This document shows positions 1 to 13,576 of a stretch of 13,576 nucleotides of DNA, piece after piece (the first letter of the stretch is position 1; each line of letters begins with the position of its first letter). Source of the DNA: an uncultured Acidobacteriota bacterium (GTDB lineage Bacteria > Acidobacteriota > Blastocatellia > Pyrinomonadales > Pyrinomonadaceae); NCBI GenBank assembly GCA_946480545.1, contig CAMLKY010000009.1, positions 1 to 13,576 on the forward strand. Direction: 5' to 3'. The notes under the pieces are model-generated. The model was given only the letters and a program-made list of their open reading frames with translations. It was not told the origin of the DNA and did not search any database. The position numbers and the translations under genes were made by a program.

Positions 1-11
1 TTAAGGTCCCC

Positions 12-93
12 TAACCGCAGATAGCGCAGATGACGCAGATCCGGAAATGATAAGATCGGATCTGCTCCGCTTAACCTGCGTCCTCTGCGGTTA
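12..93. repeat. Intergenic hairpin repeat, family A copy 1
   Basis: Imperfect inverted repeat. The left arm (12-40) holds three near-tandem subunits of the form CGCAGAT at about 9-nt steps; the right arm (about 61-93) is a diverged reverse-complement copy ending CTGCGGTTA. It lies downstream of the M1 peptidase on that gene's strand. Five other copies are at 2724-2790, 3882-3953, 6721-6784, 8005-8094 and 9277-9347. That the window opens almost inside a repeat fits an assembly break at a multi-copy element (inference). Confidence 0.7.
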
Positions 94-130
94 ACTACCG
101 CCGCCATCACCGGATGCAGCCGGCTTGAAG

Positions 131-201
131 GCCCCGGTCGCTACCGACTCCCGGTTCTGACAAAACGCAGTGCCCCGGTCGCTACCGCTCGCGGTTCTGA
201 C
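131..201. repeat. Two direct repeats with a 41-bp period
   Basis: A unit of about 30 bp occurs at 131-161 and again at 172-201. Both begin GCCCCGGTCGCTACCG and end GGTTCTGAC; they differ by one extra base and one substitution in the middle. Each contains a small dyad (CGGT-CGCT-ACCG). The second copy ends on the first base of the peptidase stop codon (201-203), so the pair forms the immediate 3' flank of that gene. There is no T-run to suggest an intrinsic terminator. Nothing else coding was seen in 1-200. Confidence 0.8.
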
Positions 202-1856: not shown

Positions 1857-1905
1857 AATTTGTAATTGTAAGGAAGTGGATAAGTCATATTAGCATGTGC
1901 CGTCG

Positions 1906-2027
1906 GAAGAAGCGGGGGCAAAGCCGCCCTTCCGGACCTGCGAATGTCGCTATCATTCGATGTAAGTGTAACGTTGGGTCGCCGCCAAACCCGCACGTCC
2001 GGGAAGGGCGGCTTGACCCCGCTCTTC
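1906..2027. repeat. Long GC-rich inverted repeat (family B)
   Basis: Two arms of about 30 nt, 1906-1936 and 1998-2027, are near-perfect reverse complements; each contains an AAGCCGCCCTTCC-like core next to GCGGGG. The 61-nt centre contains a smaller hairpin, CGAATG-7 nt-CATTCG. It lies between the divergent peptidase and cyclophilin genes, so it is not a terminator for either. A related half-copy occurs at 12235-12261. Confidence 0.7.
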
Positions 2028-2067
2028 TGCTTTACTCATCAGGTTTTCTTGTCTCAAAATAGATTGA

Positions 2068-2800
2068 ATGTTTAGGACGGCGATATTCATCTTGATATTG
2101 ACGACGCTGGCCGGCGCGCAACAAACGCCCGCGCCAAAAGCGAATCCCAGGCCGACGCCCGCGCCCGCGGCAGCCAAACCCGAACCCTTCGATAAAGCCG
2201 ATGTCGCGACGATGTCAAAGCAATGCGTATCGCTGGATACGGAGAGCGGCGTCATCGAGCTCGAGCTGTATCCCGAGCACGCGCCCGAATCTGTGAGAAA
2301 CTTTCTGAATCTTGCCGCGACGGGTTTGTTCGACGGGACGAGTTTCAGCCGGGTTGTCCCCGGGTTCGTCGAAGGTCCCGTCCGCGTCGGGATCGTGGTC
2401 GCGGGAAGGGGGCAAGGTTACAAGGGCGATAGGCGAACGGGCGCAGCGGACAATACCCGACGAGCCGAACAAGATCATTCACGAGCGCGGTATCTTATCG
2501 ATGGCCCGCCCGGACGAACCGAACAAAGCCACTACCGATTTCTTTATCCTGCTAAAAGAGGCGCCATACCTCGACGGTAAGTTTGCCGCATTCGGTCGGG
2601 TCACCAAAGGGATGGAAGTTGTCGAGACGATCAATAAAGCCCCGGTCACCGGCGAGAAACCAGAAAAGCCTGTGCGAATCCGAAAAGCGACGGTTACCCT
2701 GTGTGGTGACAAAGGGCATTTGAACCGCGGAGACGCAGAGGCGCAGAGAACATTTATTAGCTTTTCTCTGCGCCTCTCCGTCTCCGCGGTAAAACTCTAA
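2068..2800 (+). pseudogene. Secreted cyclophilin-type peptidyl-prolyl isomerase, frameshifted
   Basis: Cyclophilins catalyse cis/trans isomerisation of X-Pro bonds; this one would act outside the cytoplasm. The first frame, from ATG 2068, gives a signal peptide (MFRTAIFILILTTLAGAQ), a Pro/Ala linker and the cyclophilin start, including ESVRNFLNLA and the catalytic-Arg motif FSRVVPGFV (to about 2368). Homology then moves to another frame, with TIPDEPNK, GILSMARPDEPN, TTDFFIL and LDGKFAAFGRV, stopping at 2798-2800. The expected QGGD segment after GFV is missing at the shift (about 2368-2400), so the active-site Gln is lost. The 3' frame runs through a hairpin repeat (2724-2790), giving an unusual tail. 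In the first frame alone, translation would stop at 2580 with nonsense sequence. This is a decayed gene or an assembly indel. No Shine-Dalgarno precedes 2068. Family assignment is strong; functionality is doubtful. Confidence 0.85.
2724..2790. repeat. Intergenic hairpin repeat, family A copy 2 (best-preserved)
   Basis: Arms 2724-2750 and 2764-2790 pair at 26 of 27 positions around a 13-nt loop. The arm reads ACCGCGGAGACGCAGAG followed by a third CGCAGAG-like subunit. It sits between the convergent 3' ends of the cyclophilin remnant and the TPR gene, and overlaps the read-through tail of the cyclophilin frame. The strong stem could act as a bidirectional transcription barrier, although no T-tract follows. 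Confidence 0.85.
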
Positions 2801-2801
2801 C

Positions 2802-3116
2802 TCACTCCCCGAAATCCAAATCCAGCGTCATCCGGTACTCGTTAGCCATTGATGGATGTCCGTGCGACATGGAGACGTCAATGCCCTTCCGGTATGTCTC
2901 GATGGCTTTCTCGCGGTCGCCGTTGAGTGCATATGCGTTCGCAAGTGTGCCGTACGCATTGCCCTCGTCGTCCGATTTCGCGAGATAGTCTTCGAGAACG
3001 CGGATCACATCTTCATGTCGGCCCAGCTTCTCGTACTCCTTCGCTAGCCCGAACATCACCATCGTGTTCGATGGATCAGCGACAAGCATCTGTTCGAAAA
3101 CTTCGATTCGGTTCAT
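2802..3116 (-). CDS. Small TPR-repeat protein
   Basis: Protein of 104 residues made almost entirely of tetratricopeptide repeats: residues about 1-33 (VFEQMLVADPSNTMVMFGLA), 34-67 and 68-101 (ANAYALNGDREKAIETYRKG), with the usual Gly/Ala/Tyr and Ala-Pro-type positions. TPRs are helical protein-protein interaction scaffolds; no signal peptide is seen, so it is probably cytoplasmic. Its ATG (3114-3116) overlaps the stop of the upstream SYLF gene (3113-3115) in an ATGA arrangement, implying translational coupling. The partner is unknown. The 3' end abuts a hairpin repeat. Confidence 0.85.
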   Translation of the reverse strand: MNRIEVFEQMLVADPSNTMVMFGLAKEYEKLGRHEDVIRVLEDYLAKSDDEGNAYGTLANAYALNGDREKAIETYRKGIDVSMSHGHPSMANEYRMTLDLDFGE

Positions 3117-3811
3117 CGTGCGTAGACTGCGACCGTCTGGCCAAACTTTCGCAGTGATGCCGGCGCGGCCGAAGCAGGGAGAGGGGCATTGCCGATTATA
3201 TCTTTCAGGTTCTTTTCGTAGATTGCCCGGTTCAGATCCTTGTCCGAGTTGATCGAGACACCCTTGAGTGATACGCCTGCGAAAAGTCCTTTGCTGCGCG
3301 AGTAGGTAAGTATCTCGGCATCGAAAGTTGCGTTCGTCGACGCGGCCGCCGTACGACCGATCGGTCCGGCCGCGACGCTTCCTTCGCCGCCGAGCTCGAA
3401 CTTATCTTCGACCAATCCCTTCATTCCCTTGTCATTCATTATCAGCAGCACATAATCGGTTTTCGAGCCGCCGATCTGCAATCCAAGACTGCCGCCAGCC
3501 ATGTTCAAGAAGGCAGGTGCACTCCAACCTCTGCCGATACGCCGCACTGCGATTCCTTTTCCTCCCTGGCCGCCGATGATGAACGCGCCTTTGATCGTCC
3601 CCGGAAAGACTACGACCGCCTTGGCCTTGTTCAGAAGGTCGCGCGGGATCGATTTATCCCGGATCGACATGATCTCGGTCATGACTTCCGACGCCTTATT
3701 GACGCGCTCAACCGCGTCCTGCAGATCTTTGCCGGTTTTCTTTTGAGCGAACGCGGGTGCTGAGAAAAATAGGAGCAGGATGGTAATGCTTGCAGCGAAT
3801 TTAAACTTCAT
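3113..3811 (-). CDS. Secreted SYLF-domain (Ysc84/DUF500) lipid-binding protein
   Basis: 232 residues. Residues 1-22 form a signal peptide (hydrophobic core ITILLLFF, ending APAFAQ). The remainder matches the bacterial SYLF domain: AKAVVVFPGTIKGAFIIGGQ, then GGKGIAVRR, GWSAPAFLNMAGGSLGLQIG, TDYVLLIMNDKGMKGL and the FDAEILTYSRSKGLFAGVSL region. Eukaryotic SYLF domains bind phosphoinositides and actin; the bacterial role is not established, and a periplasmic or envelope lipid-binding role is inference. The start at 3811 is chosen over an upstream ATG (3943) because it opens the signal peptide and has GGAGG at 3816-3820, 4 nt upstream. It overlaps the TPR gene by 4 nt downstream. A candidate extended -10 promoter lies at 3836-3844. 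Confidence 0.92.
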   Translation of the reverse strand: MKFKFAASITILLLFFSAPAFAQKKTGKDLQDAVERVNKASEVMTEIMSIRDKSIPRDLLNKAKAVVVFPGTIKGAFIIGGQGGKGIAVRRIGRGWSAPAFLNMAGGSLGLQIGGSKTDYVLLIMNDKGMKGLVEDKFELGGEGSVAAGPIGRTAAASTNATFDAEILTYSRSKGLFAGVSLKGVSINSDKDLNRAIYEKNLKDIIGNAPLPASAAPASLRKFGQTVAVYAR

Positions 3812-3835
3812 AGAACCTCCTTGTGATTCGGTGAC

Positions 3836-3844
3836 AGTATACCA
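3836..3844 (-). promoter_or_regulatory. Candidate extended -10 promoter for SYLF-TPR operon
   Basis: On the minus strand the sequence TGGTATACT matches an extended -10 element (TGN followed by TATACT, five of six against TATAAT). It would start transcription about 18 nt upstream of the SYLF ATG, leaving room for the GGAGG site. No convincing -35 is visible, as expected for extended -10 promoters. Sequence match only. Confidence 0.42.
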
Positions 3845-3881
3845 AAGCCAGGATATCTCAGGCTGAGCGGCAGAACGAAGA

Positions 3882-3953
3882 ATCTCACGCGGAGCTCGCG
3901 AAGTACGCAGAGTCTGATACCCCTCTGCTAACTCCGCGAGCACTGCGTGAGAT
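3882..3953. repeat. Intergenic hairpin repeat, family A copy 3
   Basis: Arms 3882-3912 and 3923-3953 (31 nt each) pair at about 26 positions around a 10-nt loop; the arms contain CACGCGGAG and TACGCAGAG subunits. It lies between the 3' end of the radical SAM gene and the promoter region of the SYLF gene, which point the same way. Confidence 0.75.
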
Positions 3954-3961
3954 CATTCAAC

Positions 3962-4981
3962 TCAGAAGAGGGATTGCTGGGCCGGTTCAGGGGTGGCGGC
4001 GACCGCTTCGGTCTCAGTGGGCATCTCGTGGTTTCGGAAGCCGAAACGTTTTGCGTGGAATTCGAAGAGCTTCTTTGTAACTTCCCACTGCTCGGTCCGT
4101 CCAGCATCACGCTCGGCGTAAGAACGGTGCTGCAACTGGCCGCCGCGCTCTCGCTTCATCGCATTGATCACTTTTGCAGCAGCAGTCGGCGACAGACGCT
4201 CGTGCATCTTGGCAACGAAATACTCCTCGATCGAGTCGCTGTCGAGATGGAGCATCGACATAAACGCGCGTTTCGCTCCTGCCTCGCGAGCACGTTTGAG
4301 CAGCTTTGGAATATCCGATTCGTTGTAACCCGGAATAACCGGAGCCACACCGATGCCCACTTCGATACCCGCATTCGCGAGTGTCTCCATCGCCCGGAAT
4401 CGCGCCTCGGGAACGGGCGTGTATGGTTCAAACGGATTCGACTTCTCCTTCGTAAAGAAGGGAAGCGAGAAATATACCCAGCAGTTGAGCTTCTTCAGGA
4501 TGTCGATGTCGCGGGTCACGAGCGGCGACTTGGTGATCACCCCGACCGGCACGCCGAACTCCGCACATACCTCCAGGCATTGGCGGGTCAGTTCGTAACT
4601 CGCCTCGAGCGGAAGATACGGATCGGTCGCGAACGAGAAATCTACATGCGGCATTTTCTGCCGGGTCTTCTTGAGCTCGTCACGCAGCACCTGCGGAGCG
4701 TTTGGTTTGACGACGATCTTCGTCTCGAAGTCGGTCCCAGCCCCGTATCCCAGAAACTCGTGATACCGCCGCGCGAAACAATAAGTACAGCCGTGGACGC
4801 ATCCGCGATAACAGTTCACGGTGTACCGCCACCCGCCTTCCCAATCGGAAGCGAACGCTTTCGTGATCATCTTCTTGGTCGCAGTTTCCTCGAAAACCTC
4901 AAGCTTTGTCGGCGGCGGCTCGCCTATGAACTCCGCCGAGTATTTATCGAACGGGTTCGGCGGGTTCTTGACGTATCGCAT
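3962..4981 (-). CDS. Radical SAM protein of the spore photoproduct lyase (SPL) family
   Basis: 339 residues. The iron-sulfur motif is at 61-68 (CVHGCTYC, CxxxCxxC), preceded by NCYRGC and followed by FARRYHEFLG, the signature of the SplB-like COG1533/Rv2578c group. Further family segments include KPNAPQVLRDELKK, FSFATDPYLPLEASYELTRQCLE, the GVITKSPLVTRD strand and GVAPVIPGYNE. The enzyme should bind a 4Fe-4S cluster and cleave S-adenosylmethionine to a 5'-deoxyadenosyl radical. The true substrate is unknown: these proteins occur widely in non-spore-formers, so spore DNA repair should not be assumed. No Shine-Dalgarno is seen upstream of ATG 4981. A terminator at 5034-5083 separates it from the upstream gene, so it probably has its own promoter. 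Confidence 0.9.
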   Translation of the reverse strand: MRYVKNPPNPFDKYSAEFIGEPPPTKLEVFEETATKKMITKAFASDWEGGWRYTVNCYRGCVHGCTYCFARRYHEFLGYGAGTDFETKIVVKPNAPQVLRDELKKTRQKMPHVDFSFATDPYLPLEASYELTRQCLEVCAEFGVPVGVITKSPLVTRDIDILKKLNCWVYFSLPFFTKEKSNPFEPYTPVPEARFRAMETLANAGIEVGIGVAPVIPGYNESDIPKLLKRAREAGAKRAFMSMLHLDSDSIEEYFVAKMHERLSPTAAAKVINAMKRERGGQLQHRSYAERDAGRTEQWEVTKKLFEFHAKRFGFRNHEMPTETEAVAATPEPAQQSLF

Positions 4982-5033
4982 AGATGAAACAATAGCCTAT
5001 GCCCGGGCCACAATCAAGGCAGGTACGGTAAAG

Positions 5034-5083
5034 AAAAAAGAGTTGTGCAATACATCCCGGCGATGCATCTCACAACCCTTTTT
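5034..5083 (-). terminator. Rho-independent terminator after the secreted protein gene
   Basis: On the minus strand, 16 nt after the stop of the 5099-6037 gene, a stem opens GGGTTGTGAGATGCATC, closes over a short GCCGG-type loop and returns as GATGTATTGCACAACTC, followed by TTTTTTCTTT. About 13-14 of 17 stem positions pair. The A-rich flank on the other side gives it bidirectional character, but no plus-strand gene ends here. Confidence 0.8.
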
Positions 5084-5098
5084 CCGAGTGCCATTTGG

Positions 5099-6037
5099 CT
5101 AATTGTCTATCTTGTCCGGTAACGTCGAACGATCGAAGTAGTACGAGACCACTCCGCGTAGTTTCTTGATCACGACGGTCTCGGGCAGGGTTTCGAGGAC
5201 ATCCCGAAGTGTTGTTTCTGGGACGAATTCATCATCCGTTGGAACCAATCCGACGGTAACGATCTGCGGCCCATCTTCCGACTCAACTTCGTACTCGAGA
5301 GCGTAGCCCGCGACTTTAATGCCAGCGGACGTGACTTCGCGCTTGAAGTCATCGATCGACTGTGGCTCTTCGAACCTTCTACGCTCGAACTCGCTTCTGT
5401 TCGCTTTGCCCTGAAGGATCTTGGTTGTTGGAAGGATCTCGCCGTCGAAGAGATTACCGGTCTTGGTGTAGTGTCGGTTGAGACCCTTATCGTATTTATG
5501 GGTGTCCCATTTATCCGAGGTCCACCAAAGCTCCTCGGATATCGCCGGTGTATAGGCGAGGTTACCGGCATTACCCGCGGCACCCGCCCAGTTGTACCAA
5601 AAATAGATGTAGTATCGCGTTCCGACAGTTGGGAAGTTGCCGTTTTCAACAACCACCTCAGCTTCTTCACGTTCGCCGTTTCCGTTGTCATCCTCAAAGT
5701 CGAAATACGGGTTCGGAAAGTTCGTTGAGTAAACACCGGTCGCATGGAGATTGTGATTAAGGTCGGTCATGTCATGCGTGTAACGTTTACCACTTGAAGC
5801 GTAGCTTTGAACCCCATTTCGTCCGGCTTGATTCCAATACATGCTCACGCCGAAGACGTGGCCGCTGCCTGTTGCCGTCCATCCATGACACGTATTGTTG
5901 TAGTAGGGTGAATACGATCCGTCGTAGTAGTAGTACCAGGTGCCGGTTCCATTGCACCAATCTTGTGCAGTAGCTCCTACACAAAAAAAGGCGCACAAAA
6001 ATCCCGCGAGAAGAAAAGCATTGAATTGTTTTTTCAT
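5099..6037 (-). CDS. Secreted protein of unknown function, aromatic-rich N-terminal half
   Basis: 312 residues; family not recognised. Residues 1-24 are a signal peptide (MKKQFNAFLLAGFLCAFF, cleavage likely after ATA). The mature N-terminal half is rich in Tyr, Trp, Gly and Asn (WYYYYDGSYSPYYNN at 34-48), with Cys28 and Cys50 as a possible disulfide. Residues 115-127 (EDDNGNGEREEAE) resemble an acidic calcium-loop motif. Trp-rich strands (YYIYFWYNWAG, ELWWTSDKWDTH) follow. The C-terminal part (about 225-312) is a separate-looking acidic alpha/beta segment (VAGYALEYEVESEDGPQIV, VVIKKLRGVVSYYF). The ATG at 6037 is supported by AGGAG at 6044-6048 and the signal peptide. It probably forms a single-gene unit: candidate promoter at 6121-6149 and terminator at 5034-5083. 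Confidence 0.75.
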   Translation of the reverse strand: MKKQFNAFLLAGFLCAFFCVGATAQDWCNGTGTWYYYYDGSYSPYYNNTCHGWTATGSGHVFGVSMYWNQAGRNGVQSYASSGKRYTHDMTDLNHNLHATGVYSTNFPNPYFDFEDDNGNGEREEAEVVVENGNFPTVGTRYYIYFWYNWAGAAGNAGNLAYTPAISEELWWTSDKWDTHKYDKGLNRHYTKTGNLFDGEILPTTKILQGKANRSEFERRRFEEPQSIDDFKREVTSAGIKVAGYALEYEVESEDGPQIVTVGLVPTDDEFVPETTLRDVLETLPETVVIKKLRGVVSYYFDRSTLPDKIDN

Positions 6038-6120
6038 TGGTTGCTCCTATTTGTCTAGCTTAGTCAGAGATCGCTATCCAAGGTTGCATGGAGGCAGCGC
6101 GGAATCGGGTGTGGCATCTG

Positions 6121-6149
6121 AGAATAAAACAAACCAGATTTGAAAGCAA
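6121..6149 (-). promoter_or_regulatory. Candidate sigma70-type promoter for the 6037 gene
   Basis: On the minus strand, TTGCTT (complement of 6144-6149) and TATTCT (complement of 6121-6126) are separated by exactly 17 nt. They lie about 84 nt upstream of the secreted-protein start codon, in an AT-rich patch that differs from its surroundings. Pattern match only. Confidence 0.4.
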
Positions 6150-6189
6150 TGATTTTGGACCGAGCCAAAACCTCCTGGGCCGCCGGGGT

Positions 6190-6714
6190 TCAAAGCTCTC
6201 TCTGCATCAGTAAATCGGTTTGTGAGTCTTTTCCGAGCTGAAAGACGTGACTGCCGACGACGCGAAAGCCATTCTTTTCGTAGAACCGCTGGGCGCGTGG
6301 ATTATATTCCCACACGCCGAGCCACATGACGTCCCGGTTTTCTGACCGGGCTCGGGCGAAGCAGGCGTCCATCAATCTTTGGCCCACACCCTGGCCGAGA
6401 TGTTTCTGGTGTGAATAAAGTCGCTGCAGCTCGACAGGTCTCGTCGCGGTGATGCCGGGTTCGACGCTGTCGATGATTATCTTCGCGTAGCCGGCAGCCT
6501 CACCATCGATCTCGGCGATGATAAAGATGTTCTTTTCATCGGCGAGCTCGGCGGCGATCTGATCCTGATTGAACGCCTGGCGCATGTAGTGGTTGAGGTC
6601 GTCGGGGGCGTTCTTGGGGTGGTGTGCGAACGCGTCCCAGAATGTCGTGTATGCGAGATCGGTGAGAAGCTTGGCGTCTTCTGGTGTAGCCTGGCGGATG
6701 AGAATCTCAGACAT
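6190..6714 (-). CDS. GNAT-family N-acetyltransferase
   Basis: 174 residues, the usual length for a single-domain GNAT. It shows ILIRQATPEDAKLL at the N-terminus, the beta4 strand IFIIAEIDGEAAGYAKI, the acetyl-CoA pyrophosphate loop QKHLGQGVG at 103-111 (Q/RxxGxG type) leading into helix alpha3 (RLMDACFARA), and the late motif WLGVWEYNPRAQRFYEKNGFRVVG. The enzyme transfers acetyl from acetyl-CoA to an amine; the acceptor cannot be told. It follows the acyl-CoA dehydrogenase on the same strand after 74 nt filled by a hairpin repeat, so co-transcription is possible but not shown. No Shine-Dalgarno is visible before ATG 6714. Confidence 0.88.
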   Translation of the reverse strand: MSEILIRQATPEDAKLLTDLAYTTFWDAFAHHPKNAPDDLNHYMRQAFNQDQIAAELADEKNIFIIAEIDGEAAGYAKIIIDSVEPGITATRPVELQRLYSHQKHLGQGVGQRLMDACFARARSENRDVMWLGVWEYNPRAQRFYEKNGFRVVGSHVFQLGKDSQTDLLMQREL

Positions 6715-6720
6715 AATTTA

Positions 6721-6784
6721 GCCGCGGATTCGCACAGGATGAACGCAGATCAGATCCGCCCCATCCGCCGCGCACGTCCGCGGC
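6721..6784. repeat. Intergenic hairpin repeat, family A copy 4 (degenerate)
   Basis: Left arm about 6721-6750 (GCCGCGGATTCGCA...) and right arm about 6751-6784 (...CACGTCCGCGGC) share an 8-nt perfect outer stem, with looser internal matches to CGCAGAT/CGGAT subunits. It fills the gap between the acyl-CoA dehydrogenase stop and the GNAT start, which are co-directional. Confidence 0.6.
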
Positions 6785-6788
6785 GTAC

Positions 6789-7961
6789 CTATTTCATGAT
6801 CAACTTCGCGATCGTCTGCAATTGCATGTTCGAGGTCCCTTCATAGATCGCGCCGATCTTCGAGTCGCGCCAGAACTTTTCTACCGGATAATCTTTCACG
6901 TACCCGTAACCGCCGAAGAGTTCGATCGCTTTCGACGAAACGCGTTCGGCGCACCGCGATGAATAAAGCTTCGCGATCGCGGCTTCTTTCAGGAACGACT
7001 TTCCGGCATCTTTCAATCGGGCAGCATTGTAGACGAGAAGCCGTGTGGCCTCGATCTCAACCGCCATCTCCGCGAGTTGGAACTGGACGGCCTGGAAGCT
7101 TCCGATCGACTGTCCGAACTGTTCGCGCTCGGCGGTGTATTTCAATGCGGCCTCATACGCGCCCTGTGCAATACCGAGCATCTGAGCGCCGATGCCGATG
7201 CGGCCCTCGTTCAACGTCTCGATCGAAACTTTGTAGCCCTTGCCGACCTCGCCGAGCACATTCTCCTTCGGCACTTTGCAGTTGTCGAGGATAAGCTCGG
7301 TGGTCGATGAAGCCCGGATCCCGAGCTTATCTTCTTTCTTCCCGACGGAAAAACCTTCGAACTGCTTCTCGACTATAAACGCTGTAATGCCCTTGTAACC
7401 GGCGGCCGGATCGATGGTCGCGAAGACGATAAAGATCTCCGCCTCATTGCCATTGGTGATCCAAAGCTTCTGCCCGTTCAGTTCATAATGATCGCCCTTC
7501 TCGACGGCCCGCGTTTTCAGAGCAAAGGCGTCTGAGCCCGAAGCTGCTTCGCTCAACGCGTAGGCGCCCACACGCTGGCTCGCGAGCTGCGGCATGTATT
7601 TCTTTTTCTGCTCGTCATTCGCCCACCGCATGAATGCGTTCGTCACCAGCGTGTTATGCACGTCGACGAAGACCGAGACGCTCGCATCAACACGAGCAAG
7701 CTCTTCGATCGCGACGATCGCATTAAAGATCGTCGACCCGGCCCCGCCATGCTCCTCGGGCGATTCGATCGCCATCAGACCGAGCTCGAAGCACTGCCGG
7801 ATGATGTCAGGATCGAGCTTTCCGGCGTGCTCCATCGACTCGACCTTCGGCCGGACCTCGCCCTCCGCAAACTCGCGAACCGACGCGCGGAACAATTCTT
7901 CTTCTTCGGACAAAACGGTCAGACCGTGATTCGATAACGCCTGTGCTGCGGCTGTACTCAT
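6789..7961 (-). CDS. Acyl-CoA dehydrogenase (FAD-dependent, short/medium-chain type)
   Basis: 390 residues, typical for the family. The enzyme oxidises acyl-CoA to trans-2-enoyl-CoA in beta-oxidation, passing electrons to electron-transfer flavoprotein. The FAD/substrate signature YALSEAASGSDAFALKT is followed by LNGQKLWITNG. The C-terminal domain has LNEGRIGIGAQMLGIAQGA, REQFGQ and ELFGGYGYVKDYPVEKFWRD. The catalytic base is Glu374 in IYEGTSN, the position used by short- and medium-chain enzymes. The start at 7961 (MSTAAAQ) is preferred over an upstream TTG (7985) because AAGGAA lies at a suitable distance. A palindrome at 7982-7998 resembles a fatty-acid repressor operator. The actual substrate (fatty acyl or branched-chain acyl) cannot be told. 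Confidence 0.95.
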   Translation of the reverse strand: MSTAAAQALSNHGLTVLSEEEELFRASVREFAEGEVRPKVESMEHAGKLDPDIIRQCFELGLMAIESPEEHGGAGSTIFNAIVAIEELARVDASVSVFVDVHNTLVTNAFMRWANDEQKKKYMPQLASQRVGAYALSEAASGSDAFALKTRAVEKGDHYELNGQKLWITNGNEAEIFIVFATIDPAAGYKGITAFIVEKQFEGFSVGKKEDKLGIRASSTTELILDNCKVPKENVLGEVGKGYKVSIETLNEGRIGIGAQMLGIAQGAYEAALKYTAEREQFGQSIGSFQAVQFQLAEMAVEIEATRLLVYNAARLKDAGKSFLKEAAIAKLYSSRCAERVSSKAIELFGGYGYVKDYPVEKFWRDSKIGAIYEGTSNMQLQTIAKLIMK

Positions 7962-7981
7962 ACGAATTTCCTTGTTTTCTT

Positions 7982-7998
7982 GCAAACCGATTGTTTGC
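7982..7998. promoter_or_regulatory. Palindromic operator-like site GCAAAC-N5-GTTTGC
   Basis: A perfect inverted repeat with 6-nt arms and a 5-nt centre (CGATT), 21 nt upstream of the acyl-CoA dehydrogenase ATG, next to its ribosome-binding site. The arms resemble the (G/C)AAAC...GTTT(G/C) half-sites of the TetR-family fatty-acid regulator PsrA, though the spacer is 5 rather than 2-4. Regulation by an acyl-CoA-responsive repressor is inference; no such regulator is in the window. Confidence 0.45.
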
Positions 7999-8004
7999 GA
8001 TTTC

Positions 8005-8094
8005 TTCGAACGCGGATTTCGCGGATCAGGCGGATTTTGACGGTATTAAGATCAATCCGTTTGATCCGCTCCATCCGCTAAATCCGCGTTCGAA
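8005..8094. repeat. Intergenic hairpin repeat, family A copy 5
   Basis: Outer arms TTCGAACGCGGATTT (8005-8019) and its exact reverse complement (8080-8094) enclose further CGCGGAT/GCGGAT subunits on each side, at about 9-nt steps. It lies between two divergent gene starts (acyl-CoA dehydrogenase and the membrane protein), a position incompatible with a simple terminator role. Confidence 0.8.
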
Positions 8095-8137
8095 AAAAAA
8101 TCTTTGCGAAGAAGCCAGGATCAACTACGCCGTATTT

Positions 8138-8166
8138 TTGTTATTTACCCTTGGTTGCAATACCAT
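8138..8166 (+). promoter_or_regulatory. Candidate sigma70-type promoter for the membrane protein gene
   Basis: TTGTTA (8138-8143) and TACCAT (8161-8166) are separated by 17 nt, each matching the consensus at four of six bases, about 32 nt before the GTG start at 8198. The surrounding stretch is AT-richer than flanking DNA. Pattern match only. Confidence 0.38.
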
Positions 8167-8197
8167 TCTATTTCAAGGCAAAAAGCAAGGCAAAGCA

Positions 8198-9280
8198 GTG
8201 AATCTCGACAAGGCGCCCATCGATCCCGACATCCGCACACCGCGCCTATCAGCAAAACATACCAGTCGTCTGACCATTATCGGCATCGTCCTCACCGTAG
8301 GCGGGATCGCACTCTTTTCTTATTTCGTGTACGCGGTCGGTGTGGGCGAGATCATGGCCAACATCGATAAGTTCGGTGTCGCCGGGTTCGTTGTCATACT
8401 TGGGATCTACTCTCTCCGGATCTGTGCCCGCGCCGGTGCGTGGACACTGTCTGTGTATGAGCCGTACACGCTTCGAATGAAGGACACGGTCCCGGCGGTG
8501 ATCATCGGTGAGGCGATGAGCAGCATGATACCGCTTGGGATCCTGATCAGCGGAACGACCAAGGCGGTCGCTGTCAGAAAACGCGTTCCGCTGGTCGTCG
8601 GACTCTCATCCGTCGCGACCGAGAATCTCTTCTACAGTTTTGTGACGAGCGTATTCCTGATACTCGGGGCGTTCACGTTAGTTCGAACGTTCGAGATGGA
8701 CGACGGGTGGGTGCTGACGATCGATATACTGATCGCGGTTATATGCGGCGTGGTCGTCTTTCTGATCCTCCTGGTCGTAAAGCAATGGCACTTTGCGAGC
8801 GAGACGTGCGAGTGGCTTTATCGAAAAGGAATCGCGGTGGGTCTGCTCGAGCACGGTCGTCTTCAGGTTCGCCTGTTCGAGAATTTCATCTACGGGTTCT
8901 ACCGCCGTTATCCGAAACGGTTTCTGCCGATCTGCCTTTGCGAATCGGCGTTTCACCTGCTCGGAATATTTGAGGTCTGGTTCATACTCATCCGAATCTC
9001 CTCACCCGATCTTCTTTCGGCCTTTCTCCTCGAATCTGTCAGCCGCCTCATTACGATCGTGTTCAAGCTGATACCGTTCGTCATCGGCGTCGATGAAGCG
9101 GGCGCGCAATTCGTCGGCGACACGGTTGCGATCGGGGCGGGGATCGGAGTCACGCTCGCCGTCATACGAAAAGGCCGCATCCTGTTTTGGACGGCGATCG
9201 GCCTGCTGCTGATCATCAAGCGCGGTTTGTCGATCCGGGCGATGTCGACGGTCCAGGAAGGCCCGGAGGATGCTCTTTAA
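8198..9280 (+). CDS. Lysylphosphatidylglycerol synthase/flippase-like integral membrane protein
   Basis: 360 residues with about eight hydrophobic segments, including LTIIGIVLTVGGIALFSYFVYAV (about 25-47), VAGFVVILGIYSL, IIGEAMSSMIPLGILISG, SFVTSVFLILGAFTL, ILIAVICGVVVFLILLVV and FWTAIGLLLII near the C-terminus. Layout and the segments RICARAGAW, EAMSSMIPLG and GVDEAGAQFV fit the membrane domain of MprF (UPF0104, LPG_synthase_TM), found alone in many bacteria. There is no C-terminal aminoacyl-transferase domain, so it is a stand-alone membrane part, possibly a lipid flippase or transporter (inference). The start is GTG 8198, with AAGG 7 nt upstream and a sensible cytosolic leader; the open frame extends back to 7943, but that stretch crosses a hairpin repeat and the dehydrogenase start. 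Transcribed divergently from the dehydrogenase. Confidence 0.83.
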   Translation: MNLDKAPIDPDIRTPRLSAKHTSRLTIIGIVLTVGGIALFSYFVYAVGVGEIMANIDKFGVAGFVVILGIYSLRICARAGAWTLSVYEPYTLRMKDTVPAVIIGEAMSSMIPLGILISGTTKAVAVRKRVPLVVGLSSVATENLFYSFVTSVFLILGAFTLVRTFEMDDGWVLTIDILIAVICGVVVFLILLVVKQWHFASETCEWLYRKGIAVGLLEHGRLQVRLFENFIYGFYRRYPKRFLPICLCESAFHLLGIFEVWFILIRISSPDLLSAFLLESVSRLITIVFKLIPFVIGVDEAGAQFVGDTVAIGAGIGVTLAVIRKGRILFWTAIGLLLIIKRGLSIRAMSTVQEGPEDAL

Positions 9281-9347
9281 ACGCAGAAACCGCAGAGATC
9301 GCCGAGGAGTATTTTCCCCTCTGCGGTCTCCGCGGTCTCTGCGTTAA
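9277..9347. repeat. Intergenic hairpin repeat, family A copy 6
   Basis: Starts on the stop codon of the membrane protein gene (TTAA) and ends TTAA 7 nt before the convergent DUF3455 stop. The left arm holds ACGCAGAAA and CCGCAGAGA subunits; the right arm (from about 9317) is their reverse complement with a few mismatches and one bulge. It could act as a bidirectional terminator between convergent genes. Confidence 0.78.
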
Positions 9348-9353
9348 GTGTAC

Positions 9354-9917
9354 CTAATCTACCTGCTTGTAGAAGTAATACTCCGTCGTATACGGAACGC
9401 GGGCTTCCTGGCCGACTACGGTTCCGGGTTCGGCGGGGCGGACGCCCCCGACGGTGTTCACGCGCTGGATGTACGTGACACCGTCAAAGATCCCCGGACC
9501 GCTGCTCGATACAGCCGTCAACCGCAGCCATGGAACAGCCGTTGGATCCGGCGTGCATGGGACAGCGGTCGTACCCGAGCTGATGACAAGACTGCCGCTG
9601 TTGCTTTCCCACGTCGGTCCGCCATAGTGCGTCCCGATCAGGCCGCGGTAGTTCTTGTTCGCGAACAATCCCGCCTCCGGAGCGACAAACGCCCAAGTCG
9701 TTCCATTCCATCGATAGATCTGGACACCGACCGCATAGACGCTCAACGCGACGCGATGTCCTTCCGGTGCCGCGAGCTGTTCGCATCCGACCGGAAGTTC
9801 AGGTGCGGCCGCTCCGACCTCCTGAGCGATCGCAAAGCTCGCCGCCGCATGTCCGACCGCGACGACACCGATCATTAATGCGATACGAATGATCTGTTTT
9901 GTATTGATGATGTTCAT
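9354..9917 (-). CDS. Secreted DUF3455 protein
   Basis: 187 residues. Residues 1-32 form a signal peptide (IALMIGVVAVGHAAASFAIAQ). The rest follows the DUF3455 pattern: VGVQIYRWNGTTWAFVAPEAGLF, GLIGTHYGGPTWES, GSLVISSGTTA, AVPWLRLTAVSSSGPGIFDGVTYIQRVNTVGG and the closing VPYTTEYYFYK. The function of this family is unknown; no catalytic motif is evident and it is probably periplasmic or secreted. Start supported by AGGAG at 9926-9930, 8 nt before ATG 9917. It follows the haloperoxidase-like gene by 36 nt with a near-identical ribosome-binding region, suggesting one operon. Confidence 0.87.
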   Translation of the reverse strand: MNIINTKQIIRIALMIGVVAVGHAAASFAIAQEVGAAAPELPVGCEQLAAPEGHRVALSVYAVGVQIYRWNGTTWAFVAPEAGLFANKNYRGLIGTHYGGPTWESNSGSLVISSGTTAVPCTPDPTAVPWLRLTAVSSSGPGIFDGVTYIQRVNTVGGVRPAEPGTVVGQEARVPYTTEYYFYKQVD

Positions 9918-9953
9918 TATTATTTCTCCTTTCTTGTATCTATTGCGGAAGAT

Positions 9954-11093
9954 CTACTGCACGCAGCGTCGCGGCTGCATGAGATTCTGAAAAACGTAAT
10001 TACCAACGCTGCGCCCGATCGACTGACCGGCGACGTTATCGAAGGTGAAGTGGATCCCACCCCAGACGCGTGCCCGCTCCTGCTCGTTGGCCATAGCCGA
10101 GAAGCCCTGGTATGAACGGGTCGCTCCGCCGGCTCCATCCCACGTGTGTGAAAAGGGGATGTCGTCGCGTCCGAAGAAAAGTGCCAGCACCGTGGATTGC
10201 GAAGTACCGATCGTCGCCATATTTCCCGCGTAAGACGGGTACGGCGGCGTGCCGATCAAAGAGCTCCACGAAGGATCCGGGTCGGTATCCGGATTGCCGT
10301 CCTCATCTGCACGGCGGATCGCCGTGACGGGACGCCACAATCCGTAAGCGAACTTGCTGGCGAAAGCGGTCTGCAGCGCGTCGTGCAACGAGATGTTGAT
10401 CAACGCGAACAGCCGAGCCTTCTGGATCGTCGAGCTATTCTGCTCTTCGGAAACTGTCCTGGCGACGTTGTTCCAAACCAACAGAAAGTTCGTCGGAGTA
10501 TTCACATTCGCCCAAAGCCGAGCAGCCTGGGTTTGATCGGCAGTGCGCGTCGTGCTCGTCGCGGAGCCAAGCTCCTTAACTTCCTTAAACGCGAGTGCGT
10601 ATTGCGCGCTGCTGATGGCAGGCGGCGGTCCGGGTGCGAACTGCGTCGCCGACTGAATGCCGAACGGCGTGACATTCGGATAATGCGTGAATGTTGCCGG
10701 CGAGTTCGCGGGCGGTGTCGGCTGCCAGTTGCCTGGCGTCGAGGGAAGCGAGTACGCAGGCGGAGTTACGTTCCAGCCGTCGTTCGCTCGTGCCGCGATC
10801 ATGTTTATCGCGACGCGTTGACCAACTCGGATACCTTGCTGCGCACGGTAAGGATCGATGCCTTCCAACGACGCCTCAAGCTCGGTCGCAAAGACCGACG
10901 CGCGAGCCGGGTAAAGCGCAATCAGCACGTCATGTGCGGCCTGGGCCGCAGCGGCATCAAGCGATGCGTTCTTCGAGCCGGGGACGTCGGTCAGGTATGC
11001 GGTATAGCTGCCATCGACCGAGTTTGCCGCATCGAACATCGCCGCGTGCATCATCGCGTAGCTGCGAACGGGCATGATCGTCGCCGGGTGCAT
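9954..11093 (-). CDS. Vanadium-dependent haloperoxidase-like protein (PAP2 superfamily), main frame
   Basis: 379 residues from the first in-frame ATG; the true gene probably began at 11244 (separate entry). Homology extends upstream of 11093 in this frame (NRVLRETVLTPG), so this start is artificial. The family binds vanadate and oxidises halides with hydrogen peroxide, or acts as a phosphatase. Vanadate ligands can be placed: K247 and R254 in KFAYGLWRP (K-x6-R), R342 and the axial H348 in RVWGGIH (R-x5-H). The central PSGH(S) motif, which supplies Ser, Gly and the acid-base His, is instead SYAGNM at 287-292, so Ser is replaced by Ala289 and His by Asn291. Activity may therefore differ from classical haloperoxidases or be absent. 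N-terminal helices (MPVRSYAMMHAAMFDAANSV) are typical of the secreted bacterial members. Confidence 0.87.
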   Translation of the reverse strand: MHPATIMPVRSYAMMHAAMFDAANSVDGSYTAYLTDVPGSKNASLDAAAAQAAHDVLIALYPARASVFATELEASLEGIDPYRAQQGIRVGQRVAINMIAARANDGWNVTPPAYSLPSTPGNWQPTPPANSPATFTHYPNVTPFGIQSATQFAPGPPPAISSAQYALAFKEVKELGSATSTTRTADQTQAARLWANVNTPTNFLLVWNNVARTVSEEQNSSTIQKARLFALINISLHDALQTAFASKFAYGLWRPVTAIRRADEDGNPDTDPDPSWSSLIGTPPYPSYAGNMATIGTSQSTVLALFFGRDDIPFSHTWDGAGGATRSYQGFSAMANEQERARVWGGIHFTFDNVAGQSIGRSVGNYVFQNLMQPRRCVQ

Positions 11094-11112
11094 CCCGGGT
11101 GTGAGGACTGTC

Positions 11113-11244
11113 TCACGAAGAACACGGTTCCTCGGCGCCGGTGTTCTGAACGCTTTCGCTCAACTGCTGCCCGCTTCCGACCGAATGAATTAAAAGTAAG
11201 AATGCGAAGGTCAGAACTGTCCTGACCAGATTTATCTTTTTCAT
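11113..11244 (-). pseudogene. Frameshifted N-terminus (signal peptide) of the haloperoxidase-like gene
   Basis: From ATG 11244, with AGGAG at 11252-11256, the frame encodes a clear signal peptide (MKKINLVRTVLTFAFLLLIH, then SVGSGQQ) and stops at 11113 after only 43 residues. In the main haloperoxidase frame, the sequence just upstream of its first ATG reads NRVLRETVLTPGMHP, the usual N-terminal helix, normally preceded by Trp (WN). Restoring two bases (or removing one) at 11127-11133, where the minus strand reads GAGGAAC, gives ...GAEWNRVLRETV and joins the two frames. The intact gene would span 9954-11244. This is a recent mutation, an assembly indel or, less likely, a programmed shift; no slippery run is present. 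Confidence 0.78.
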
Positions 11245-11302
11245 TATTTTTCTCCTATTTAGTTCCTTACTGCTGTGCTTTCTTGCGCAGAGGTCCCCCA
11301 TT

Positions 11303-11322
11303 CCCGTCGCCGCAGCGACGGG
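11303..11322. repeat. Perfect 8-bp GC hairpin between methyltransferase and haloperoxidase genes
   Basis: CCCGTCGC, a 4-nt loop (CGCA) and GCGACGGG. It lies 48 nt past the methyltransferase stop and 59 nt before the haloperoxidase start, both on the minus strand. There is no T-tract on either side, so an intrinsic terminator is not supported; it could be an RNA structure in the leader of the haloperoxidase transcript. Confidence 0.5.
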
Positions 11323-11369
11323 CGAGGCAAACCTAATTGCAAAGAAACTTGTTTCAGGCCACGGCGTTC

Positions 11370-12194
11370 TTACGCCTTGACCGCGCGTACCTCCAGATAC
11401 TCAGACCCGACAAGCGTCGAACCGTCGGTCGCACGATTGTTGTCGATCCAGAGGCGTTCGAGATCGGCACGCAGGGCTTCTTCACCCGCTGCGCCGACCG
11501 CGTCAAATGCTTTTTGTGTCGGCCCGTAGAACTTGCGGAAATGCTCGACCGTTTCCGCCGGTCCGAACGGGAATACAAAGTCGATATCGCGACGCGTCAT
11601 CTGAAGCTCAGCGATCCCATCCGCGAACCGCGACTCAACGGTAGCCGCATCGCCCCACAACAGCGGCGAAGGCATCCCCGCCGGTGGCGGCACATGCTTA
11701 CCGGTGACCTTGAACATCTGGCCGATAAATCCCTGGGGTGTCCAATTCGCCATCGCGATCACCCCGCCCTTAGCGCACACACGGATCAACTCCGCAGCCG
11801 TCACGTCGGGTCTCGGAGCGAACATCGCACCGAACATCGTGATCACGACCTCGAAAAGCCCGTCGTCGTACGGCATAGCCTCGGCGTCACCGATATCGAA
11901 CTCGGCGCTCACGCCCGCCTCGACGGCACGCTCGATAGCCTGCTCGATCAGATACGGTGCGATGTCGATGCCCGTCACCTCGGCGCCCGCTCGGGCCGCC
12001 GGGATCGCCGTGTTCCCGTTACCGCACGCTACATCGAGAACTCGAGTCCCCGGTTGAATCCTCAGGCGCGAGACAAACTCTTCCGCACCCGCCTCGAACG
12101 AACGAGCGATCTCGCCAAAGTCACCCGCCGTCCATGTTGCACGCAGCTTGTGTTTGAGCTGCTCGATCTCTGTTGTCATTTTCAAACTGTCCAT
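11370..12194 (-). CDS. Class I SAM-dependent methyltransferase
   Basis: 274 residues. Motif I is RVLDVACGNGNTA at 51-63; the acidic end of strand beta2 is GIDIAP with Asp77; then FDIGDAEAMPYDDGLFEVVITMFGAMFAPRP (motifs II-III) and AAELIRVCAKGGVIAMANWTPQGFIGQMFK. The fold is the methyltransferase 11/25 type; the acceptor is unknown. The start at 12194 is preferred to the internal Met at 12179 because AGGAG (12203-12207) sits 8 nt upstream. Transcribed divergently from the winged-helix regulator across a 330-nt gap that holds the regulator's repeat array. Downstream, 125 nt separate it from the haloperoxidase-like gene, so co-transcription is uncertain. Confidence 0.87.
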   Translation of the reverse strand: MDSLKMTTEIEQLKHKLRATWTAGDFGEIARSFEAGAEEFVSRLRIQPGTRVLDVACGNGNTAIPAARAGAEVTGIDIAPYLIEQAIERAVEAGVSAEFDIGDAEAMPYDDGLFEVVITMFGAMFAPRPDVTAAELIRVCAKGGVIAMANWTPQGFIGQMFKVTGKHVPPPAGMPSPLLWGDAATVESRFADGIAELQMTRRDIDFVFPFGPAETVEHFRKFYGPTQKAFDAVGAAGEEALRADLERLWIDNNRATDGSTLVGSEYLEVRAVKA

Positions 12195-12234
12195 ATCAAC
12201 TACTCCTATGATTGCGTTATCTATTCACCGCGGG

Positions 12235-12261
12235 GCGGGGGCCGAAGCCCCTTTCCACCGG
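12235..12261. repeat. Family B half-copy
   Basis: GCGGGGGCCGAAGCCCC followed by TTTCCACCGG resembles the left arm of the inverted repeat at 1906-1936 (GCGGGGGC, AAGCC, CTTCCGG in the same order and spacing). It contains a perfect GGGGC-CGAA-GCCCC hairpin (12238-12251). No matching second arm was found nearby, so it appears to be a single arm. The rest of the 12195-12425 gap shows only a weak promoter-like pair (entry at 12352). Confidence 0.5.
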
Positions 12262-12351
12262 TTATTCTTATGGTCCTGCCCTTGGTTCACTCGCTCGCTA
12301 GACTGACTGGTCGCGATCACCGTTTCTCTTTTCACAGGGTGCGACCGACCG

Positions 12352-12380
12352 TTAAGCTCGCCGCGGGCTTGTGCTATCAT
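12352..12380 (+). promoter_or_regulatory. Candidate promoter upstream of the regulator
   Basis: TTAAGC (12352-12357) and TATCAT (12375-12380) with a 17-nt spacer. The -10 matches at five of six positions; the -35 is weak. Transcription would start near 12387, placing the 11-bp repeat array downstream in the leader. Alternatively, the real promoter may lie inside the AT-rich array. Confidence 0.35.
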
Positions 12381-12425
12381 TCGCCTAGCCCGACGTACAC
12401 GAAATCTAGCAACACCTCGGCTTTA

Positions 12426-12513
12426 CCGTCCTTAGAATCGGATTAAAGATCGATTAGAAGAGGCTTAAAGATCGGTGAGAATAGCGTTATAGACCGATTA
12501 GAAAGTTATTAGA
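12426..12513 (+). promoter_or_regulatory. Array of eight 11-bp direct repeats before the winged-helix gene
   Basis: Eight consecutive 11-nt units start at 12426, 12437, 12448, 12459, 12470, 12481, 12492 and 12503. Aligned, position 7 is T, position 9 is A and position 11 is A in all eight; position 8 is T in seven. The consensus is nnnCGnTTAGA. Alternate units resemble each other more, giving a 22-bp super-period (GATCGATTAGA at 12448, GACCGATTAGA at 12492). The array ends in the AGAAGG ribosome-binding site of the regulator. The 11-bp direct-repeat spacing is that of PhoB/OmpR-type tandem binding sites; autoregulation is inference. Confidence 0.75.
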
Positions 12514-12524
12514 AGGTGAACTCG

Positions 12525-13508
12525 TTGAAAGAAAAGCACCTTTACAGCTTTGGTGACTTCACGCTGAGCGTCGAGGACCACAGTCTGATGCGTGGCGGCG
12601 AGAATATTCCGCTCACGCCGAAGATGTTCGACCTGCTTTTGGTGCTCGTCCAAAATCCGGGAAAGGTCCTGACGAAGGATTTTCTTCTCGAATCTGTCTG
12701 GCCGAACAGCTTTGTCGAAGAAGGAAACATAACTTTCAATATCCGTCAGCTTCGGAAAGCCCTCGACGACAATCATCAGGCACCGCAGTACATCGAGACC
12801 GTAACGCGGAGGGGCTATCGATTCTTGCCCTCGGTAGAAGCGGTCACAACCGCTCCGGCCGAAGAACCGCAGACGGCACCGGCTCCGCGTGCAGTAGAGA
12901 CAAGAGGTCGTTGGAGGGGGATCGCCTTTGCAGGCACCCTGGTGACGCTTATCGCCGCGGTCGCGATCGGCGCATGGTTTCTCAAAGGCCGAAGCGTCGA
13001 CTCCGCGGCAATACTCAACAGCCCATTCGAGCGCGAGAAACTGTCCACCGACGGAAAGGTCTTTCACGTCGCGATCTCGCCGGACGGGAAGAATGTCATC
13101 TACACAAACAAGATCGGCGGCAAACAGAGCGTCTGGCTCAGACAGCTTGAAACGTCCAATAACGTTCCGCTGATTCCGCCTTCCGATGACTTTTACGGTG
13201 GGCTCGCCATGGCGCCGGATGGCAACAGCATCTACTTTGTACGCAGCGGTCTTCAAGGCCCGCAGTTGGTTGTCTACCGTATGTCGATCTTCGGAGGCAT
13301 ACCCCAGAAGATCGTCGGCGAAACTCAGGGCTGGATAAGCCTGTCGGCCGACGGAACACGCATTTCATTCGTCCGTTGTCCGTATACCGACGAGGACTAT
13401 TGCTCGCTGTACGTCGCGGACGCACACGATGGCGGCAACGAGAAGAAACTTGTGACACGTCCGCGGCCGATCCGGATCGGTGACTCGGCGAAGGCGAAGC
13501 CCTCATAG
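12525..13508 (+). CDS. Membrane-anchored winged-helix (OmpR/PhoB-type DNA-binding) regulator with PD40/TolB-like propeller, 3' truncated
   Basis: From TTG 12525 the protein is 327 residues. Residues about 8-100 are a Trans_reg_C winged helix: GDFTLSVEDHSLMRGG, IPLTPKMFDLLLVLVQNPGKVLTKDFLLESVWP, FNIRQLRKALDD and YIETVTRRGYRFLP. A transmembrane segment follows a Pro/Ala linker (about 130-150, IAFAGTLVTLIAAVAIGAWFL), then PD40-type blades (AISPDGKNVIYTN, AMAPDGNSIYFVR, SLSADGTRISFVR). This is the one-component CadC/ToxR-like layout: DNA-binding inside, sensor propeller outside. The start TTG 12525 has AGAAGG 8 nt upstream; GTG 12516 is possible but has no spaced ribosome-binding site. Homologous architecture ends at about 13490 (IRIGDSA); the final residues and the stop at 13508 lie in compositionally foreign sequence, so the natural gene was longer. 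Confidence 0.88.
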   Translation: MKEKHLYSFGDFTLSVEDHSLMRGGENIPLTPKMFDLLLVLVQNPGKVLTKDFLLESVWPNSFVEEGNITFNIRQLRKALDDNHQAPQYIETVTRRGYRFLPSVEAVTTAPAEEPQTAPAPRAVETRGRWRGIAFAGTLVTLIAAVAIGAWFLKGRSVDSAAILNSPFEREKLSTDGKVFHVAISPDGKNVIYTNKIGGKQSVWLRQLETSNNVPLIPPSDDFYGGLAMAPDGNSIYFVRSGLQGPQLVVYRMSIFGGIPQKIVGETQGWISLSADGTRISFVRCPYTDEDYCSLYVADAHDGGNEKKLVTRPRPIRIGDSAKAKPS

Positions 13509-13576
13509 GCGGCGCGGCACGCGTCGAAGTCGTCGCGGCCCACGGCGCGGCCGCCGAAGAAGCTCCGCTCGACCAC
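13490..13576 (-). other. High-GC segment at the window end, coding-like on the minus strand
   Basis: Counting 13501-13576 gives about 75% G+C, well above the rest. Read on the minus strand from 13576, the frame VVERSFFGGRAVGRDDFD continues to about 13490 with nearly every codon ending in G or C, the signature of a gene from a high-GC organism. The product is not recognised. It joins the regulator reading frame where propeller homology ends, suggesting a chimeric join at about 13480-13495. Confidence 0.5.

Follow-up and report, generated by a model that had tools for sequence, protein, structure and literature searches.

What does a long array of direct repeats do when it stands immediately in front of a transcription regulator gene? 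The question is raised by a 13,576-nucleotide stretch of DNA (the window) from an uncultured Acidobacteriota bacterium of the class Blastocatellia (GenBank assembly GCA_946480545.1, contig CAMLKY010000009.1, positions 1 to 13,576, forward strand). Eight consecutive 11-bp units at 12426-12513 directly precede the gene of a winged-helix regulator. A first reading, made from the sequence only, proposed that they form a polymeric operator for that regulator.

An array of eight 11-bp units

The array is divided as follows.

12426..12436, + strand: unit A, the leader unit CCGTCCTTAGA (repeat analysis, comparison with relatives)
12437..12458, + strand: units B1-C1, TTAAA + TTAGA (repeat analysis)
12459..12480, + strand: units B2-C2, TTAAA + TGAGA (repeat analysis)
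12481..12502, + strand: units B3-C3, TTATA + TTAGA (repeat analysis)
12503..12513, + strand: unit D, AAGTTATTAGA, overlapping a Shine-Dalgarno-like sequence (sequence, repeat analysis, comparison with relatives)

In order, the units are CCGTCCTTAGA ATCGGATTAAA GATCGATTAGA AGAGGCTTAAA GATCGGTGAGA ATAGCGTTATA GACCGATTAGA AAGTTATTAGA. Column counts bear out the eight 11-nt units and the three invariant positions described in the sequence-only reading: T7, A9, and A11 occur in all eight units, T8 in seven, and G10 in five. The 11-bp period in direct orientation is that of a pho-box-like operator. The array has a GC content of 37.5%, compared to 56% for the window.

The periodicity survives comparison with shuffled sequence, a check that the first reading had itself proposed. 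Self-identity at lag 11 was 0.442, which was equalled in 27 of 20,000 dinucleotide shuffles, or in 855 of 20,000 when the best of lags 6-30 was counted. The 22-bp super-period noted earlier is stronger. Self-identity at lag 22 was 0.636, and none of the 20,000 shuffles came as high, either at lag 22 or at any lag from 5 to 30. The window-wide maximum of lag-11 identity lies on the array, and so does the window-wide maximum over lags 4-29, which is at lag 22. Likewise, the top of the eight scores that Tandem Repeats Finder (TRF) gave in the window belongs to 12432-12503 (period 22, 3.3 copies).

A one-component regulator, probably membrane-anchored

12511..12516, + strand: Shine-Dalgarno-like AGAAGG, 8 nt before TTG (read from the sequence)
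12525..13484, + strand: regulator gene, TTG start, cut short by the window (homology to the ortholog ends at ~13484)
12597..12824, + strand: Trans_reg_C (PF00486) winged-helix DNA-binding domain (Pfam match)
12723..12749, + strand: recognition-helix residues G67-Q75, with F71 at 12735-12737 and R74 at 12744-12746 (coupling analysis)
12921..12983, + strand: hydrophobic segment of 21 residues, a probable transmembrane helix (read by eye from the translation)

In the regulator, an OmpR/PhoB-type winged helix is followed by a hydrophobic segment and then by a PD40 propeller. Its Trans_reg_C match scored 79.8 bits against a Pfam cut-off of 26.2, and the Pfam order Trans_reg_C then PD40 was found both in the truncated protein of the window and in a full-length ortholog. 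No Pfam match to a receiver domain was found in either protein. The best solved relative of the DNA-binding domain by sequence is CadC (5ju7, E 1.6e-17). In other words, the protein has the ToxR/CadC-like layout of an N-terminal winged helix and another domain at the C-terminus, with the receiver domain absent, and it is probably membrane-anchored like those proteins.

The gene most likely starts at TTG 12525 and not at GTG 12516. In the ortholog the homologous TTG immediately follows an in-frame stop (TAG), and in two further relatives (L024 and L025) so does the homologous leucine codon. AGAAGG is placed 8 nt ahead of the TTG. The earlier statement that the array ends exactly at the ribosome-binding site also needs amending, as the last unit overlaps AGAAGG (12511-12516). 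At the other end, homology of the regulator to the ortholog breaks off abruptly at a tail of 74% GC (13485-13576), so the contig end may be chimeric.

Arrays recur before related genes

The ortholog (L001/L022), from a metagenome-assembled genome of Acidobacteria gp4, encodes 712 residues that are 65% identical to the window protein and have the same domain order. Eight units are present at the same place, with one junction of 10 bp. Relatives at E <= 1e-30 were found in at least 82 of the 162 genomes of the class. The window gene and 125 relatives, the best of the matches listed at that threshold, made up a set of 126 genes in which distant family members are consequently under-represented. 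Five loci (L031, L036, L037, L039, and L043) were left out beforehand because the match did not run from the gene start, the flank was shorter than assumed, or the frame was broken.

Autocorrelation of the upstream regions (130 bp before the aligned start) peaked at lags 11 (0.315), 22 (0.304), and 31-33 (~0.28). These peaks were absent from the 126 comparison regions lying 215-345 bp upstream and from coding sequence. Thus, the search for an 11-bp autocorrelation peak in related genomes, which the first reading had suggested as a check, came out in favor of the array. The best lag of a single upstream region was 11 in 49 cases, 22 in 23, 10 in 21, and another value in 33.

Individual arrays were called with a matrix whose training set included many of these upstream regions. 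Of the 126 genes, 86 reached a score of at least 7 upstream, 2 far upstream, and none in the coding stretch. The remaining 40 relatives fell below 7 upstream. One of the two far-upstream regions that passed (L027) is a second TTAGA array, which was found by pattern. An earlier caller that used no matrix separated the regions less cleanly (60 of 126 upstream vs 19 of 126 far upstream).

Further evidence comes from genes outside the training. A later batch of 30 loci consisted of 14 new class members, 7 loci outside the class, and 9 repeats of earlier genes, and 12 of the 14 new class members reached 7. None of 34 presumed response regulators of the same fold did so (highest score 4.1); these controls were assigned from open-frame length and a high Trans_reg_C score, and their starts were set at the furthest in-frame ATG, some of which may be wrong. 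This indicates that the arrays go with the one-component family rather than with the fold in general.

Outside the class but within the phylum, 27 genes were scored; 7 of them reached 7.0 after rounding, one of them at exactly 7.0, and the lag-11 peak was weaker (0.299). The 27 genes include near-duplicates, and phylum-wide generality is for that reason not claimed. In three of these genes (L308, L310, and L315), arrays end in CAAAG units beside an NLTVNISALR helix, which suggests that the scheme extends partly beyond the class.

Unit bases follow the recognition helix

If each array is bound by the product of its own gene, then the bases of the units should change with the DNA-recognition helix. 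The unit cores do differ between paralogs (TTAGA, TGAGA, TGAAA, TCAAA, CTAAA, TAAGA, GGAAA, and others). The helix was compared with the units in 106 genes (77 of 100 earlier genes, 3 new ones, 25 loci from the class search, and the window), and coupling was counted in the 89 that passed score 7. The genes were picked partly as array-bearing, which inflates the proportion 89/106 and should not create a coupling between helix and base.

Among the columns of the DNA-binding domain, residue 71 had the highest mutual information with base 10 and residue 74 with base 8. Both residues lie in the recognition helix. The 89 genes include close relatives, and the values were therefore compared with base changes simulated on a tree of the DNA-binding domain without the helix. 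Each of the two couplings was reached in none of 1000 runs, and each ranks first of 79 columns. All 37 genes with an aromatic residue 71 (F or Y) have G10, and 48 of the 52 with a non-aromatic one have A10. For residue 74, K goes with G8 (9 of 9), R with T8 (17 of 19), and Y with C8 (8 of 8). The window agrees with the rule, having F71 with G10 and R74 with T8. Four genes with R71 have GGAAA cores although they are merely 42-66% identical outside the helix, and a fifth, the held-out L301, has GGAAA as well.

The coupling has limits. Some columns outside the helix are also strongly associated (D82 and L30 with base 10; F100 and P45 with base 8). In the 89 genes, base 7 showed no coupling beyond the tree null, and the coupling of base 11 to the helix was negligible. 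The partial Mantel correlation was modest: 0.131 overall (2 of 1000 permutations), 0.113 for pairs less than 50% identical (12 of 1000), and absent for pairs less than 40% identical outside the helix (631 of 1000). Of 12 held-out genes at score 7 or more, the helix could be read in 11; seven agreed with the residue-71 rule (L297, L299, L301, L303, L309, L312, and L317), two were ambiguous (L295 and L300), and two were contrary (L298 and L318). In other classes, two R71 genes (L327 and L334) have CTAGG, against the rule. These exceptions indicate that the residue-71 rule is local to the class and depends on context.

The position of residue 71 can be related to solved complexes. It aligns with the Gln of the CadC helix VVTQSIS (Gln70 by our count) and, by our own alignment, with Val197 of PhoB. 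In the portions of the reports available, PhoB Val197 contacts thymines (PMC3973317), and in the CadC model a specific contact is assigned to the glutamine (PMC5430869).

The recurrence of arrays in the family and the way in which the core tracks the helix of the adjacent protein make a self-operator the most likely reading, and it is very likely that the array is bound by the product of the gene downstream of it. The polymeric operator of the first reading is supported by the 11/22/33-bp peaks of the relatives and by these helix-tracking bases.

A promoter-like element lies upstream of the array

How would a regulator bound at the array affect its own gene? Two motif matches upstream bear on the answer.

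12352..12357, + strand: -35-like hexamer TTAAGC, 17 bp before the -10-like motif (sequence; same hexamer and spacer in ortholog L001)
12372..12380, + strand: extended -10-like TGCTATCAT (similar TGTGCTATNATTCG-like stretches in several orthologs)

The window has TTAAGC, a 17-bp spacer, and TATCAT with an extended TG at 12352-12380, and the ortholog has TTAAGC, 17 bp, and TATGAT. Among the 126 regions, the motif TGNTANNNT occurred 45 times at 95-155 bp before the aligned start, compared to ~11 times in mononucleotide shuffles. This zone of enrichment is upstream of the arrays. We infer that 12352-12380 is a promoter. Measured from the promoter-like element, the array begins ~45 bp downstream and ends at ~135 bp, which corresponds to ~+40 to +127 if transcription starts ~7 nt after the -10-like motif, and it overlaps the Shine-Dalgarno-like sequence. 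Pho-box-like operators for activation sit upstream of the -10.

The location of the array downstream of a promoter-like element and over the ribosome site points to a road-block type of negative autoregulation as the most likely mode. In the proposed mechanism, winged-helix domains would bind the array head-to-tail, one monomer per 11-bp unit, with the recognition helix reading the TTAGA-type core. The bound regulator would block elongating RNA polymerase, resulting in cooperative negative autoregulation, and the number of units in the head-to-tail filament would set the steepness and strength of repression. Given binding, a negative sign is likely. Taken as a whole, the array is probably a polymeric self-operator through which the regulator cooperatively represses its own gene by blocking polymerase.

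Alternatives to self-repression

The main competitor keeps the self-binding and reverses the sign: recruited by the array, the regulator would act as an activator of its own promoter or of a start site close to the array. PhoB and CadC activate at their targets. CadC, an activator according to the available text of its report (PMC5430869), is also the closest solved relative, and a second, unseen promoter might exist. However, it is upstream of the arrays that the extended -10-like motif is enriched, and between the called array and the aligned start many relatives have only ~10-30 bp, which leaves scant room there for a core promoter. Activation is thus unlikely, although it is the strongest of the alternatives.

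The array could instead be bound by another regulator of the OmpR/PhoB type or serve the divergent methyltransferase gene, a role that the sequence-only reading had suggested in addition to autoregulation. The array does lie in a divergent intergenic region. In the ortholog L001, however, the methyltransferase is two genes away and the divergent neighbor is another ORF, which we take from its resemblance by eye to be ferritin-like; the array has stayed with the regulator. On this synteny, control of the methyltransferase was rejected, and the earlier suggestion is unsupported. The core also follows the helix of the adjacent gene, and the alternative as a whole is improbable.

Slightly less probable still is a role in the 5' UTR of the mRNA, where purine-rich repeats around the ribosome site might, for example, be bound by ribosomes or by an RNA-binding protein. 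Such a role would suit an array that is probably transcribed, overlaps a Shine-Dalgarno-like sequence, and has many AG-rich cores in the family. It does not suit a unit of about one turn of the DNA helix, cores such as TCAAA and CTAAA, or a base identity that follows the DNA-recognition helix of the encoded protein. Finally, the imperfect similarity within the array and the duplicated look of its 22-bp blocks might suggest a chance or slippage-born tandem repeat without function, but the chance of this is close to nil in view of the lag-22 result and of the ortholog and most examined relatives, which have retained 11-bp arrays of differing sequence in the same position.

Comparison of the window with L001 yielded a separate observation. 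An ORF at 9954-11093, presumably of the vanadium-haloperoxidase/PAP2 type by its resemblance, sits in a cluster otherwise common to both, and the corresponding stretch of L001 is without such an ORF. Elsewhere in the window (2068-2800), what looks by eye like a cyclophilin-type peptidyl-prolyl isomerase is seemingly split over two frames (ORFs 2068-2580 and 2312-2800).

Arrays elsewhere in the genomes

In the genomes of six relatives, TTARA repeated over three units, with one mismatch allowed, was found 29 times and its reversed counterpart 37 times, so there is no excess. This makes a wide regulon built on long arrays unlikely; shorter sites would escape the pattern. Seven of the 29 hit loci were inspected. 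One (L232) is an array before a family member, and at L233, L257, L259, and L260 a family gene was not evident nearby.

The remaining two of the seven are arrays. At L251 (G001:C8:42988-43025), a four-unit array is immediately followed by the ATG of a remnant frame; the frame is very short and resembles the N-terminus of the family, and the array is possibly an operator that has outlived its gene. At L249 (G109:C357:4914-4951), a second four-unit TTAGA array lies ~245-280 bp upstream of the aligned start of ortholog L027, near a divergent ORF that we take to be Hcp-like.

Unit number and probable growth of the array

Units were counted from a recognizable first unit, defined by GTC or TTC at unit positions 3-5, which was present in 72 of the 89 arrays examined. 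Arrays of four units are the most frequent (44 of 72). Five units were found in 12 arrays, three in 8, six in 3, seven in 1, one in 2, and eight in 2. The two arrays of eight units are those of the window and its ortholog, and the view of the first reading that eight is exceptional was correct.

Comparison of the three inner 22-bp blocks of the window with one another gave 15-17 matching positions of 22, and comparison of them with the inner 22-bp pairs of five relatives gave 12-18. In the alternative phase (C-B) the agreement is 16 of 22, so the exact segment that was duplicated is not fixed. The simplest history has an ancestral operator of four units, A-B-C-D, whose inner pair was multiplied by duplication in 22-bp steps, giving A-(B-C)x3-D already in the common ancestor of the window and ortholog lineages. 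A growth step of 22 bp, and not 11, would fit binding as pairs.

Comparison with known systems

Operators of the OmpR/PhoB type are made of 11-bp direct-repeat units (7 conserved positions plus 4) and are bound head-to-tail (PMC4415409, in the part available), and tandem trimers and tetramers are described for M. tuberculosis PhoP in the accessible part of another report (PMC4832192). The array resembles a pho box extended in series, with 11-bp direct repeats and a regulator of the same winged-helix fold. Unlike PhoB, the window regulator is one-component and probably membrane-anchored. Furthermore, the array is located downstream of a promoter-like element at the regulator's own start, and usually has four units, here eight.

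The likeness to ToxR and CadC lies in the N-terminal winged helix, hydrophobic segment, and presumed C-terminal sensor domain. In the available text of the CadC report, the suggested motif begins with TTA, as the core of most units of the window does, and the complex is mainly non-sequence-specific with few specific contacts (PMC5430869). Unlike in ToxR and CadC, the C-terminal domain of the window regulator is a PD40 propeller and the recurrent putative target is the regulator's own 5' region.

Operators with several direct-repeat units and oligomerizing regulators are also described, in the parts available, for complex operators of Streptomyces PhoP (PMC4415409) and for CarH/CarA and RdfS (PMC9304148, PMC11963761). 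These are other proteins and regulons, seemingly not recurrent self-operators across a paralogous family as far as those parts go. According to a general survey of transmembrane transcription regulators, these proteins are abundant in Acidobacteriae; its available text, when searched for 'autoregul' and 'binding site', contained neither (PMC10269533). In the open-licence full-text literature, judged by titles and the beginnings of abstracts, no paper on 11-bp self-operators in this family was found, nor any study of the family itself.

Implications for the family

Sequence recognition by OmpR/PhoB-type regulators is not fully understood, according to the accessible part of one report (PMC4832192). 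The pho-box kind of operator is already known, and the main interest of the present arrays would lie in a testable recognition code: most of the examined genes carry a probable target beside the protein sequence, and the code can thus be read directly and tested. It is reasonably probable that, in this class, members of a large paralogous family of membrane-anchored winged-helix regulators each have a private polymeric self-operator that co-evolves with the protein. The code would be near-digital (residue 71 for base 10, residue 74 for base 8), such that each genome shows its own specificity table, and operator length, commonly four units and up to eight, would be tunable by duplication of 22-bp pairs. 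The arrays may also offer a way into the function of this large family of membrane regulators, one in which self-repression is likely and operator length would evolve in 22-bp steps.
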